The notes beneath the pieces were generated by a model, which was given only the letters and a program-made list of their open reading frames with translations, did no database searches and was not told the origin of the DNA. The position numbers and the translations under genes were made by a program. From contig JAUVCV010000003.1 of NCBI GenBank assembly GCA_030595665.1, positions 1-64,000 of the forward strand: a DNA stretch of 64,000 nt, read 5' to 3'. Within the stretch, counting starts at the first letter, position 1. The number at the start of each line of letters is the position of its first letter. Shown piece after piece: positions 5,115 through 10,039 of this stretch. Origin of the DNA: Methanogenium sp. (lineage in GTDB: Archaea; Halobacteriota; Methanomicrobia; Methanomicrobiales; Methanomicrobiaceae).

Positions 5115-5650
5115 GCCTTCACCTCCATAATATCCTCATACACCGGCCCCTGCGGAGTGAGTGTACTTTTTTTCAGAGTAATGGTATCAACAACCATCTG
5201 TCCAAATGAATACCCCGATACCTCTGCAACTGCGGCGCGCAGTGAACTATCATACCGTTTGATGCGCCCGAGTGTTACGTGCGGTGTGAATATCCGGGTT
5301 TCAGATGAAATGCCCAGAGGAGCAAGACGTCTGTCCAGTTCAGCAACCGTTTCCCCGCCCCATCCGTTGTCGGATACATCAGCCCAGACAATACGGGGCT
5401 GTTTTTTCGGATGAAGCCGGACACCCGACACCGTTATTTCAGTCGGTTTAAATGAGAATTCAGACATTATTTCCTGTACACAATGCATTACATCATCAGA
5501 AACATCCCCAAGAAACTTCAGGGTAATATGCGCGAGGGGGGGATCAACACAGGTCAGTTTTGCATCACTGTTCCTGAGAATATCCTGCGCAGCATAGAAT
5601 TGATTTCTGATACTGGGGGTGAGATCAACAGCAAAAAAAGCCCGAACCAT
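5111..5650 (-). CDS. thpR: RNA 2',3'-cyclic phosphodiesterase (LigT/ThpR family)
   Basis: 2H-phosphoesterase family protein that opens 2',3'-cyclic phosphate RNA ends. Both catalytic HxT motifs are visible: HITLKFLG near residue 42 and HVTLGRIK near residue 124. Length is about 179 aa from the ATG at 5650 (MVRAFFAVDL, the usual start of the family); another ATG lies 6 bp upstream. It is the promoter-proximal gene of a two-gene leftward operon with cca and overlaps it by 4 bp. Both products act on RNA 3' ends, which fits a tRNA end-processing unit. Confidence 0.92.
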   Translation of the reverse strand: MVRAFFAVDLTPSIRNQFYAAQDILRNSDAKLTCVDPPLAHITLKFLGDVSDDVMHCVQEIMSEFSFKPTEITVSGVRLHPKKQPRIVWADVSDNGWGGETVAELDRRLAPLGISSETRIFTPHVTLGRIKRYDSSLRAAVAEVSGYSFGQMVVDTITLKKSTLTPQGPVYEDIMEVKA

Positions 5651-5776
5651 ATACATATCTATTGAACTTTTAATCAGATAGGGTTACCCATACCCCCCAT
5701 TACGGGAACAGGAAAGAAGTATTATTTTTAGTTCAGACACAACATTGGTATACGAATCCATGGGGGATTATTTTCT

Positions 5777-6046
5777 GTGACAGATGCAGCAAAAATCAAT
5801 GTGTACACACTTGAAAACTGCCCGAACTGCGAACTTTTAAAGGAATACCTGAATGCGGCAGGTATTGGATATACCATCCGCAATATGATGGACGCAGGGG
5901 CATTGACAGAACTCAGAATAAATGGTATATTTGTACGTGAGGCTCCGGTCCTGCAGATCGGAACAACGTTTTTGATATCAAAGGACCTCTTTGGTGCAGA
6001 AGGGGTTCGTGAGGACGTCGTTGATTCATTGCTCCGGGGAGACTGA
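5777..6046 (+). CDS. Glutaredoxin/NrdH-like redoxin
   Basis: Small thioredoxin-fold protein of 89 aa with GTG start. The redox motif CPNC is at residues 15-18 and the cis-Pro segment (REAPVLQIG) near residue 57. It ends 1 bp before the nrdD start, so the two are co-translated. Redoxins encoded next to class III ribonucleotide reductases in methanogens are known to feed electrons to NrdD (established for Methanosarcina-type enzymes); here that role is inferred from position. No transmembrane segment or signal peptide is seen. Confidence 0.8.
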   Translation: MTDAAKINVYTLENCPNCELLKEYLNAAGIGYTIRNMMDAGALTELRINGIFVREAPVLQIGTTFLISKDLFGAEGVREDVVDSLLRGD

Positions 6047-6047
6047 T

Positions 6048-8249
6048 ATGCCGACAAATCCCCGTCATGCAGAGAATCAGCAGACTCTTGATGGGTTCTT
6101 TGTACCAACACTTCCAAGAGTCAGAACATCGAGAGGCCATATTGTTGACTGGGACAGGGAAAAAATCGTAACGCAGATTCTCAAAGAAACACAACTGGTT
6201 GAAATATTTTATGGAAGCAAGGGAGCAGACGAACCCCTCGCGCGTGATATCGCACTTGAAGTCGAAACCAGAATTAAAAAACTCAGACTAAAATCCCTTT
6301 CAGGCCCGTTAATCCGGGAAATTCTTAATATCACCCTTCTTGAACGGGATTTGATCAAATACCGGAATGTCTGTACCCGTGTCGGTACGCCGGTCTTTGA
6401 TGCACATTTAATCGATGTGGGAATGGGATTTGAGTCACATGATAACGCAAATCTCCAGGAGAATGCAGAGACATCACACAAGAAGAAAGCAGATAAAATC
6501 AGTAAAGAACAGTATCTGCTCCAGTTACCTCCGGAACTGGCTGATTACCACCTGTCCGGAGATCTGCATATTCATGATCTTGAATATTTTGGAACACGGC
6601 CCTTCTGTCAGGACTGGGATCTGCGGTACTTCTTCTATTATGGTCTGATGCCGGACGGAAGTGGAACAAAGGCATCTGTTGCAGGTCCTGCAAAACGTGC
6701 TGAGGTTGCCATTCTCCATGCAGTAAAGGCACTTGGCAGCGCTCAGACAAATTTTGCAGGCGGACAGGGATATTACAATTTCCTGACATTTCTCGCCCCC
6801 TATTTTGAAGGACTTTCGTATCCTGATATCGTGCAGCTCATGCAGATGTTTGTCTACGAGATGACCCAGATGATGGTGGCCCGCGGAGGACAGGTCGTCT
6901 TCTCATCGGTCCAGTTATCCCCGGGAGTCCCCCACCTCTGGAAAGAAAAGCCATGCGTCTATAAAGGCAAGGTCTGGAACGGCGTACAGGCTCCGGAACG
7001 TAAATATGGTGAGTTTGAACGGGAAGTACGACTGCTCTTTAAGGCGCTCATGGAAGTGATGCTGGAAGGCGATTACTGGGGCAAACCATTTAATTTCCCC
7101 AAACCTGAAATCAGCATTGAACCTGACTTCCTGACCGAAGATGAGGCATTCAACAACGCAAATCCCGATATCCCCTCATTCAGTGAACTGTACCTGATGA
7201 CATTCGAACTTGCATCAAAATATGGTACACCATATTATGACAACCAGATTCCGGAATACCGTGGTTCAGGAGAAGGCATCTCCTGTTATCAGTGCTGTGC
7301 ATATCAGTTCTCCTCTCTTGCAGCAGACGACGATGAATTTGATGAAAAGATGCTGTTTTCCAAAGGAAAGCACTTCTCAATGGGTTCATGGCAGGTATTA
7401 TCCATAAACTGCCCCCGTGCAGCGTATAAAGCAGAAGGGGATGATGAGCGACTCTTTGCAGAACTCAAAAAATTAATGGATGTCTCTGTTGAAATCTTCC
7501 GGATTAAACGACGCTGGATGGATAACATCCGGGCAACCGGACGAATGCCATTTGCCATGCAGCGGCCAAAGGACCCGAATGATCCCGACATGGAAGAACG
7601 AGGCCCCGTTGCTGTTGATCTTGAAGGACTGGTTTATACCATCGGTATTGTCGGCGTTAATGAGATGGTCCAGCACCATATCGGAACCCAGCTGCACGAA
7701 AGCCGCGAGGCATTCCATTTTGCAATACGGGCCATGACAGAGATGGATCTCTACTCCAAAGAACTTTCAGAGAAAACGGGGATGACAATCGCTCTGGCCC
7801 GGACACCTGCAGAAACAACCGGACAGAGATTCGCCATTGCAGACCTGATAGACCAGAGGTTCAGGTCACATGCTGAAAAAGTGATCAAAGGTGATCTCGA
7901 GGCCACTATTCCTGAACTGGGACAGAAATTTGATCTCCCGGTGTACTATACCAACGGAACGCATGTTACGCCAGGTGCGGATGTGCCCCTGACGAAGAGG
8001 ATGGAGATTGAACATGTATTCTTCCCCATTGTTGACGGGGGCAATATCTTCCATATCTGGCTGGGAGAAGCGCGGCCAGACCCACGAGGTCTCATGGATA
8101 TGGCAATGAATCTCTGCAGAAATACCCAGATTGGCTACTTTGCTTTTACCCGTGATCTCACGGTTTCTCTCAAACAGTTTAAGGAATACAAGCAGGAAAA
8201 GAATCCGAAATCTAGCCTCTCTGTTGCTGACAGACGGGTAGAGGTTTAA
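6048..8249 (+). CDS. nrdD: Anaerobic ribonucleoside-triphosphate reductase lacking the C-terminal glycyl-radical domain
   Basis: Class III ribonucleotide reductase large subunit, 733 aa from the ATG at 6048, which follows the redoxin stop by one base. An ATP-cone regulatory domain covers about residues 20-110. The catalytic barrel contains the family blocks FCQDWDLRYFFYYG, SAQTNFAGGQGYYNFLTF, a Cys cluster ISCYQCCAYQ (Cys413, 416, 417), VGVNEMVQHH and TNGTHVTPGADVPL. The protein ends about 24 residues after the block IGYFAFTRDLTV. Class III enzymes normally continue there into a four-Cys zinc site and a segment with the radical glycine. No CxxC pair and no RVxGY-like motif follow, and the next gene starts 30 bp later. 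The radical glycine must come from elsewhere or the enzyme is inactive. Confidence 0.93.
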   Translation: MPTNPRHAENQQTLDGFFVPTLPRVRTSRGHIVDWDREKIVTQILKETQLVEIFYGSKGADEPLARDIALEVETRIKKLRLKSLSGPLIREILNITLLERDLIKYRNVCTRVGTPVFDAHLIDVGMGFESHDNANLQENAETSHKKKADKISKEQYLLQLPPELADYHLSGDLHIHDLEYFGTRPFCQDWDLRYFFYYGLMPDGSGTKASVAGPAKRAEVAILHAVKALGSAQTNFAGGQGYYNFLTFLAPYFEGLSYPDIVQLMQMFVYEMTQMMVARGGQVVFSSVQLSPGVPHLWKEKPCVYKGKVWNGVQAPERKYGEFEREVRLLFKALMEVMLEGDYWGKPFNFPKPEISIEPDFLTEDEAFNNANPDIPSFSELYLMTFELASKYGTPYYDNQIPEYRGSGEGISCYQCCAYQFSSLAADDDEFDEKMLFSKGKHFSMGSWQVLSINCPRAAYKAEGDDERLFAELKKLMDVSVEIFRIKRRWMDNIRATGRMPFAMQRPKDPNDPDMEERGPVAVDLEGLVYTIGIVGVNEMVQHHIGTQLHESREAFHFAIRAMTEMDLYSKELSEKTGMTIALARTPAETTGQRFAIADLIDQRFRSHAEKVIKGDLEATIPELGQKFDLPVYYTNGTHVTPGADVPLTKRMEIEHVFFPIVDGGNIFHIWLGEARPDPRGLMDMAMNLCRNTQIGYFAFTRDLTVSLKQFKEYKQEKNPKSSLSVADRRVEV

Positions 8250-8279
8250 CTATTTTCACCCCCCATACTGAAATTACGT

Positions 8280-9320
8280 ATGAAAGGGCCATCTGAACCA
8301 GTTCTCCTCCTGGATATCGGGAGGGGGACTCAGGACATATTATTGTACTCACCCGGTCAGCCGGTTGAAAATTCAATCAAAATGATACTGCCGTCACCCA
8401 ATGTGATCACAGGAATAGCAATTGAGAAGGCTGCATCAGAGGGAAAGGCAGTCCATCTCGAAGGACCGGTGATGGGAGGGGGGAAAAATAGTCAGATGAT
8501 TAAACAATGGTTACCAAAAGGTCTGAAAATCTCTGCAACCCCTTCAGCAGCGCTATCCATTCGTGACAATCTTGATTATGTAAAGAAAATCGGCGTTACA
8601 ATCACCAATACTCCCCCGGAAGATGCCGTCATTATCCGGACGGGGGATTATATGAAAGCCGAACTGCAGGAGACATTTTCCCGGTTTGGGATACCATATC
8701 CGACAAATCTGGCAGTAGCGGTGCAGGACCATGGCTACAGCCCGGATATGAGCAACCGGAAATTCAGATTCCTCCATATGAGAGAAACACTCGAAAAAGG
8801 CAACTGGAATATCCACTCACTCATTCAGGACCCTCCATCCCCATCCATGACCCGGATGCAGGCAATTCGTGACACCGAACCGGACGCTCTGGTCATGGAC
8901 ACCGGCGCTGCCGCAGTTTTAGGTGCACTCGAGGACCCCATTATCCGCAAAGCTCAGGACAAAGGCGTCACCATCGTAAACGCAGGAAATGGTCATACTC
9001 TGGCATTTACCCTGAAAGGGGATGAAGTATGTGGCGTATTTGAGCATCATTCACGGGTGCTTTTGAATGAAGGAACATGCCAAAAGTTCCTGAAAAAACT
9101 TCAGAATGGCACCCTGACAAATGACGAAGTGTATGATGACCATGGACATGGAGCTGCAGTGAACCGCGCCTGCAATTCTTCACTCATCGCCGTTACCGGC
9201 CCGAACCGCATTAACATCCTCCCGGATGCATATCAGGCGGCACCGCATGGTGACATGATGCTGACCGGCTGTTTCGGACTTCTTTCAACATGGATGAAGA
9301 CCAGAACCGACAACCCCTGA
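8280..9320 (+). CDS. DUF1786 family protein (actin/Hsp70-like ATPase fold suspected)
   Basis: Conserved archaeal protein of 346 aa, start ATG at 8280, 30 bp after nrdD and probably in the same transcript. The N-terminus (LLLDIGRGTQDILLY) resembles the phosphate-1 loop of ASKHA-type ATPases, and a second glycine-rich block (VNAGNGHTLAFTL) near residue 237 resembles phosphate-2. I recall the Pfam family being described as a putative pyruvate formate-lyase activating enzyme, but no radical-SAM CxxxCxxC motif is present, so that name should not be taken literally. Its position next to a glycyl-radical-type enzyme is suggestive only. Confidence 0.75.
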   Translation: MKGPSEPVLLLDIGRGTQDILLYSPGQPVENSIKMILPSPNVITGIAIEKAASEGKAVHLEGPVMGGGKNSQMIKQWLPKGLKISATPSAALSIRDNLDYVKKIGVTITNTPPEDAVIIRTGDYMKAELQETFSRFGIPYPTNLAVAVQDHGYSPDMSNRKFRFLHMRETLEKGNWNIHSLIQDPPSPSMTRMQAIRDTEPDALVMDTGAAAVLGALEDPIIRKAQDKGVTIVNAGNGHTLAFTLKGDEVCGVFEHHSRVLLNEGTCQKFLKKLQNGTLTNDEVYDDHGHGAAVNRACNSSLIAVTGPNRINILPDAYQAAPHGDMMLTGCFGLLSTWMKTRTDNP

Positions 9321-9325
9321 CGTTA

Positions 9326-9502
9326 TTATTTTCTTTTATCCATACAGGGGCCCACGTATGCAGTTAAATTATGTGTGGTGCTTCTCCTCGCAATAGCCAG
9401 CGCAATCGCTGCAGCACAGATAAAACTGATCAGTGTTACAAGACCAATAACACCAACAAAAAGGAGACAAAAGACCATCAGACATGCAATATCCTGAATC
9501 AT
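9326..9502 (-). CDS. Small membrane protein (58 aa)
   Basis: Short leftward gene between the convergent DUF1786 gene and the RNA polymerase operon tail. The start at 9502 (MIQDIACLMVF) is chosen because a perfect AGGAGGT sits about 8 bases upstream (plus-strand acctcct at 9511-9517). Residues 5-38 form a long hydrophobic stretch, enough for one long or two short membrane helices, followed by a basic polar tail (ARRSTTHN). I do not recognise a family. The strong ribosome binding site argues that it is translated. Confidence 0.6.
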   Translation of the reverse strand: MIQDIACLMVFCLLFVGVIGLVTLISFICAAAIALAIARRSTTHNLTAYVGPCMDKRK

Positions 9503-9589
9503 ATGCGCATACCTCCTGATGTGGAGTGCATACATTCAGCTGAACATATTATTACATATAATTATTTAGAGAGAAAAAAAACGAGAAAA

Positions 9590-10039
9590 TTATTCAGCGT
9601 CGTCCTGGACGAGCTGAACATTCACAATATCGTGCTGGCGTTCTGCAAGACACTTTGCCTTGAAGATATTCTTACCTGCTTTGCCAATTGCAATGCCACG
9701 GTCTTCTTCTTCAACATCGATAAGCGCGACAAGTTCACCCTCTTCATTCTCCTCAAAGAGAATGGAGGTGACGCGTGCCGGAAGGAAACAATTCCTAAGG
9801 AACTGCTCTGCATCGTCGGAGTATTCAACAACCTCGATGCGCTTACCTAAGTCATCAGATGCCTTCTTGATGCTTGAACCCTGTTTGCCGATTGCACGAC
9901 CCATTTCACCGGGGTTTATAACGAAAATAAGGCGTTCATTTCTCTCGTCAATGATACAGTCTCTGCTTCCTGCACCGGTCAACTGTTCAAACTGAGCCAT
10001 AAGCTGAAGGCTCTGCTCATTTAATACAATTTCTCCCAT
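9590..10039 (-). CDS. nusA: Archaeal NusA-like KH-domain factor
   Basis: Archaeal NusA homologue, 149 aa, made of two tandem KH RNA-binding domains without the S1 and N-terminal domains of bacterial NusA. The two GxxG loops are visible as GRAIGKQGSSIKKA and GIAIGKAGKNIFKA. Start ATG at 10039 (MGEIVLNEQ), 1 bp from the stop of the L30e gene. It is the last gene of the RNA polymerase operon. Its exact role in archaea is not settled; RNA binding during transcription is inferred from the family. Confidence 0.93.
   Translation of the reverse strand: MGEIVLNEQSLQLMAQFEQLTGAGSRDCIIDERNERLIFVINPGEMGRAIGKQGSSIKKASDDLGKRIEVVEYSDDAEQFLRNCFLPARVTSILFEENEEGELVALIDVEEEDRGIAIGKAGKNIFKAKCLAERQHDIVNVQLVQDDAE

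Follow-up and report, generated by a model that had tools for sequence, protein, structure and literature searches.

Class III ribonucleotide reductase (RNR), NrdD, needs a radical glycine at its C-terminus, and a four-cysteine zinc site precedes this glycine. The enzyme is taken to be a homodimer, with the radical glycine on the active-site chain. In a Methanogenium sp. genome there is an nrdD gene that stops before its glycyl-radical domain (GRD). It lies in the window, the whole stretch of 64,000 nucleotides that was analyzed. Is this gene broken, has its product given up radical chemistry, or is the radical supplied by another protein? The last is very probably the answer. From its sequence, the window gene is predicted to supply a split class III RNR with its catalytic subunit, and a 120-aa protein would give the radical domain in trans. 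The window features used here are the following.

5777..6046, + strand: NrdH/glutaredoxin-like redoxin (CPNC); PF00462 exactly at cut-off, TIGR02196 and TIGR02194 below cut-off
6048..8249, + strand: nrdD, large subunit, 733 aa; complete catalytic barrel, probably of NrdD3 type, without a GRD
6606..6608, + strand: codon of Cys187, barrel cysteine of the reducing pair; invariant in every NrdD compared (truncated, fused NrdD3-type, and short fused)
7275..7310, + strand: finger loop GISCYQCCAYQF with Cys413/416/417 (thiyl-radical and reducing cysteines), from the alignment
8166..8168, + strand: codon of Ser707; in the C-terminus alignment it stands where fused relatives have their first zinc-ligand Cys (TVC)
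8184..8249, + strand: short variable tail, with stop, in place of the zinc ribbon and GRD, from the alignment
8280..9320, + strand: DUF1786 gene (PF08735), downstream neighbor of nrdD

A preliminary description of this DNA had called the catalytic barrel complete, and two profiles with the NRDD signature of the ten-stranded barrel agree. Pfam NRDD (PF13597) matches the protein over profile positions 1-513 of 562 (445.8 bits), and NCBIfam TIGR02487 matches over 2-530 of 581 (460 bits over cut-off). Because the profile matches are otherwise nearly complete, only the C-terminal GRD part is missing. The reported Cys413/416/417 cluster is all there, together with Cys187, and the three cysteines of the cluster are invariant in the 60 truncated and 13 fused NrdD3 rows aligned. 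It had also been said that the protein has no CxxC. This is correct for the C-terminus but not for the protein as a whole, as the CYQCC finger loop is itself a CxxC. The CYQCC-type motif and the adjoining redoxin gene are features like those of NrdD3, the subtype of the Methanosarcina barkeri type. Identity with the fused NrdD of other orders is 67-70% over about 689 residues. Cys690 and Cys303 were considered as marks specific to the split form and were rejected. A fused viral NrdD also has Cys690, and the truncated NrdD from a virus has Val in place of Cys303.

Active-site positions of RNRs are a common site for inteins. Intein-sized in-frame inserts were seen in nrdD at residues of about 187-190 and 410-420 (G011, G016, G029, G030, G035, G045, G050, and others). 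Some nrdD genes carry both inserts and have open frames of up to about 2000 aa.

The window NrdD runs to ...GYFAFTRDLTVSLKQF and then continues for 22 residues, rather than the 24 first counted. A C-terminal zinc ribbon and glycyl-radical loop are absent from this chain. In fused relatives, the zinc site starts with TVC....H inside the barrel tail. Ser707 aligns with the Cys of this TVC, as had been suspected, and the His that follows is also gone. TVC is kept in a few truncated NrdDs. The tails of truncated NrdDs vary by genus in length and sequence, and neither CxxC nor RVxGY was found in them among the C-termini aligned. The next gene begins at 8280, after the 30-nt gap that had been described.

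The own genome is a 59-contig draft, and the window gene could have lost its GRD through a recent frameshift or through a mistake in sequencing or assembly. This is extremely improbable. Four congeners that are 90-94% identical, two of them closed, single-contig genomes, end at the same NrdD residue. The window NrdD was matched in 57 of 60 relatives, and a C-terminal GRD was found in none of the 60 truncated NrdD rows (44 after repeated genomes were removed). Since the congeners end at the same residue and no row has a GRD, the truncation is not an error, although the preliminary description had named one as what could overturn its reading. Read-through or a frameshift at the end of nrdD was rejected; as first reported, none after residue 700, including those past the nrdD end, restores CxxC, RVxGY, or a GRD. 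The truncation is order-wide in Methanomicrobiales, which settles whether it is a clade-wide trait. In the tree, the truncated NrdDs group in a single clade (support 0.92, or 0.81 with viral sequences added), and the fused NrdDs of other orders lie next to it.

If the radical domain is not on this chain, it may be elsewhere in the genome, and a separate small radical protein had been proposed. PF13597 has only two matches over the own genome. One is the window gene and the other is at G000:C51:5815-5979, covering profile positions 503-562. An intact second nrdD, which would have made the window gene a relic, is not among the two, and the second match belongs to a separate gene.

Contig C51 of the same genome (G000), 5629-5988, outside the window: small GRD gene, 120 aa; separate intact ORF with the radical motif SRVTGY

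The ORF has 129 aa in full and 120 aa when it is counted from the conserved start (MNWTQEQLSLKKKYPTLQDIPNEERRYKCHTCHHVVDETPCPCCGETQLEIMCPLDHCHCTHNITETIEYCPLCGQPVCPECGSHDVSQVSRVTGYLADVSGWNQGKQQELKDRAHYNVA). Its product begins with an additional Cys-rich stretch, which is followed by a complete CxxC-x4-CxxC zinc site and then by SRVTGY, the radical loop of NrdD. A small protein with CxxC-x(n)-CxxC and an RVxGY-like motif had been anticipated. For the Cys-rich N-terminus there was no Pfam match above cut-off, and it has a weak likeness to the Spt4 zinc ribbon. The four zinc cysteines, Gly95, and a GWN..K.QELKDR stretch are invariant in alignments of 22 and 44 small-protein orthologs. The protein matches NRDD models, and no PFL/GrcA model matched up to E = 1. 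All of its named matches come from Methanomicrobiales or from unplaced Euryarchaeota MAGs, with Methanogenium marinum (99%) at the top. An AlphaFold2 model of the small protein alone was poor (pLDDT 63, with the GRD below 50). In cellular genomes, the small gene is unlinked to nrdD, which is a point against the pair. It sits in a conserved block, with pyrF and the gene for deoxyhypusine synthase upstream. Downstream, the block has a CbiZ-like, Cys-rich gene and a gene that was named RPA-like by inspection. Purifying selection is strong on both genes: within the genus, dN/dS is 0.03-0.07 for nrdD and 0.04-0.10 for the GRD gene.

The two proteins correspond to one chain. The sequence comparison pairs the window NrdD with residues 13-676 of the Prevotella copri NrdD chain (8p23), and the profile of the small protein with residues 697-737, the radical glycine included. 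The published core of P. copri NrdD is 123-671 and its GRD is 676-739, with the radical at Gly711 (PMC11226230); the PDB chain is numbered 4 higher than this. Since the two matches tile the P. copri chain and the published boundary is at 671/676, the break is at the domain boundary. The zinc site of Thermotoga maritima NrdD is CxxxHx6CxxC (PMC4493059). Zinc ligands are lost from the large subunit (the Cys, now Ser, and the His), and the small protein makes up for all of them with four cysteines of its own.

It could be asked if the pieces are joined after translation, by a split intein or by ligation, into a normal NrdD. The inserts seen in nrdD of some relatives near 187-190 and 410-420 would favor this idea, but the tails of the large subunit are short and variable, and the small protein has its own start codon and its own conserved Cys-rich N-terminus. 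Inspection of both ends showed nothing like an intein, and the chance that the pieces are joined appears negligible.

Two separate subunits would need partners, and these can be found. NrdG, the radical-SAM activase that had been suggested as something to look for, is present in the own genome (G000:C49:33510-34277; TIGR02495, 152 bits over cut-off). Its ortholog adjoins nrdD directly in two fused outgroups. The redoxin gene stops one base before nrdD starts. The same order, with the redoxin gene immediately before nrdD, is seen in 29/29 truncated relatives and in 8/8 fused outgroups. The upstream redoxin is the likely electron donor. The DUF1786 gene was rejected as a part of the core system, as its linkage to nrdD is inconsistent. 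It is near nrdD in 14 of 29 relatives (1.5-kb flank) and adjacent in only part of the order. Pfam names DUF1786 a putative pyruvate formate-lyase activating enzyme. On inspection, its start, LLDIGRGTQDILLY, resembles an ASKHA-type ATPase motif and not radical-SAM.

A possible mechanism can be put together from these parts. The large subunit would contribute the barrel with the substrate and finger-loop cysteines, and the small protein would contribute the zinc ribbon and the glycyl-radical loop in trans. The GRD of the small protein is predicted to dock in the mouth of the barrel, at the site that the covalent domain has in other NrdDs, with the Cys-rich N-terminus as the docking candidate. 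NrdG would abstract a hydrogen from Gly95 (SRVTGY). The glycyl radical would then give rise, as in NrdD3, to a thiyl radical on the finger loop, and NTP reduction would follow with the Cys187/finger-loop pair as the reductant. The resulting disulfide would be re-reduced by the redoxin encoded upstream. Activation of YfiD is undetectable without cleaved PFL (PMC8683613), and by analogy Gly95 may receive its radical only within the complex. Complex formation, the radical on Gly95, and the activity itself are in this way predicted for the pair. The split NrdD lacks one defining feature of a single-chain enzyme, the GRD in cis, and appears to have the same feature in trans.

The distribution of the two genes was explored in 135 Methanomicrobiales genomes that are at least 90% complete. 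Both parts are present in 120 of these. Only the large part was found in two (G062 and G127, fragmented MAGs), only the small part in one (G116, also a fragmented MAG, in 810 contigs), and neither in 12. Over 391 genomes of the phylum, the homologous GRD of other orders normally belongs to a fused gene, with an open frame of 760-840 aa. The 12 genomes without either part (G047, G052, G063-G072) belong to a single genus, g21 of family f6, and therefore indicate one co-loss event. The nrdG ortholog is absent from all 12 and present in 29/29 other genomes tested. A class I/II RNR match is found in each of the 12. The genus that lacks nrdD, the GRD gene, and nrdG is presumably Methanocorpusculum.

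A class I/II RNR match is found in the own genome (class II) and in 110 of the other 134, and the genus without NrdD lives on such an RNR. These facts would suit a truncated NrdD that has lost ribonucleotide reduction and is now a relic or moonlighting barrel, with NrdJ making the dNTPs and the small protein serving some other role. This is very improbable, and the loss of radical chemistry that had been offered earlier as an alternative is disfavored with it. The truncated NrdDs keep every catalytic cysteine, at a dN/dS of about 0.05, and neither nrdG nor the redoxin gene has been lost. Moreover, no class I/II RNR large subunit was found in 24 of the 135 genomes, among them the single-contig G129, G136, and G139, and all of those listed (20 of the 24) have both split parts. 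No RNR other than the split one is seen in these 24 genomes, and the pair would therefore have to make their dNTPs. In the own genome, the class II RNR means that the split enzyme may not be essential.

Viruses provide the strongest link between the parts. The 135-kb IMG/VR contig L254 (IMGVR_UViG_3300044712_001062) has a GRD protein, a redoxin, and a truncated NrdD as a three-gene overlapping set (7502-10022).

7502-7798: stand-alone GRD protein, 98 aa
From 7795: CPNC redoxin; its start overlaps the GRD stop
8010-10022 plus stop: truncated NrdD, 671 aa, which ends GYFAFTKDFTVCNNAYRKY

The set sits among genes for dCMP deaminase, a MazG-like protein, and an ERCC4-type nuclease. As the three genes overlap, the parts are tied into one enzyme, which also speaks against a barrel without ribonucleotide reduction. 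The L254 NrdD branches outside the truncated and fused host clade and has no close affinity. The split may therefore have arisen more than once or have been moved by gene transfer. The GRD tree, built on about 45 aa, does not separate a fused-NrdD origin of the host small protein from a viral one.

Eleven further viral contigs, which may be incomplete, encode the small protein with no NrdD on the contig (L243, L244, L245, L246, L256, L258, L260, L261, L262, L263, and L264). In the contigs examined, the neighbors of the viral GRD genes encode Sak4-like, ssDNA-binding, Cas4-type exonuclease, and helicase or primase proteins, or else are terminase, portal, and baseplate genes. Collections of plasmids and cultured phages gave only weak matches to the C-terminal part, and these were nrdD genes where annotated. 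In some Methanosarcinaceae-like genomes (Methanosarcinales), and in a second family, a stand-alone GRD and an intact fused NrdD are found together.

L225, L226, and L228-L232 (G351, G283, G333, G187, G361, G178, and G172): stand-alone GRD proteins, in genomes that have a fused NrdD as well

Two viral proteins (L263 and L264) have the same N-terminal region as the Methanosarcinaceae form. In one of the genomes with a stand-alone GRD, G191, there is a GRD-like 109-aa protein with a degenerate C-terminus (L233:4834-5160). It is 240 bp upstream of a gene (L233:5403-7799) that resembles class II RNR, NrdJ, as named by inspection.

A GRD beside an intact fused NrdD, or alone on a viral contig like Y06I in T4, would fit a small protein that is mainly a YfiD/GrcA-like spare for oxygen-cleaved NrdD and not an obligatory subunit. 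The stand-alone GRDs of Methanosarcinales and viruses are indeed candidate RNR spare parts, from their sequences. For Methanomicrobiales, a spare is still less probable than a barrel that has lost ribonucleotide reduction. The spare-part idea fits only the Methanosarcinales and virus cases, and Methanomicrobiales keep no GRD-bearing NrdD to repair, except for the second, short fused NrdD of G011. Because no intact NrdD backs it up, with this one exception, the small protein must be an obligatory subunit in Methanomicrobiales. The parallel with GrcA/YfiD drawn in the preliminary description holds for the architecture but not for the role. There is about an even chance that NrdD GRDs are a mobile family of trans-acting subunits of methanogens and viruses. 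They would be obligatory in Methanomicrobiales. In Methanosarcinales and viruses they would serve as spares, rescuing the NrdD barrel of the host or taking it over.

If the split enzyme is real, class III RNR has a natural two-subunit form, a counterpart of the catalytic and radical subunits of class I, and a trans glycyl radical would be known for the first time from an enzyme other than pyruvate formate-lyase. Radical docking, radical transfer, and half-site behavior could be tested with separately labeled subunits. The split would explain why annotation makes the RNR of Methanomicrobiales look broken, and it suggests how viruses of strict anaerobes could control the dNTP supply. If the mobile-family reading is also true, a virus could raise the dNTP supply of its host by bringing only the small, oxygen-vulnerable radical subunit.

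RNR chains in pieces are known from other systems. They include the phage split RNRs (nrdD of phiAS4 and of Lactococcus phage 949, and nrdA of Aeh1) and the split class II NrdJab of Pseudomonas aeruginosa. The phage splits reviewed are due to introns, inteins, homing endonucleases, or fragmentation of unknown cause (PMC3653736). None of those described there takes off the radical domain exactly at its boundary and across a whole order, as in Methanomicrobiales. In an analysis of the RNR family, the GRD is the class III C-terminus (PMC9669993). No earlier description of a split archaeal NrdD was found in a search of mainly open-access literature.

The split enzyme is like NrdD3 in its barrel, its finger loop CYQCCAY, its adjoining redoxin gene, and its NrdG activase. 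Unlike NrdD3, it would have the GRD and zinc ribbon on the product of a separate, unlinked gene with an extra Cys-rich N-terminal domain. The validated trans glycyl-radical proteins are only YfiD and Y06I, both for PFL, and others have been suggested to exist (PMC8683613). Like YfiD/GrcA and T4 Y06I, the small protein is predicted to be a stand-alone glycyl-radical domain that acts in trans, and like them it is also found in viruses. Unlike those proteins, it is of the NrdD type in its sequence and its zinc site, and in Methanomicrobiales it appears to have replaced the domain permanently.
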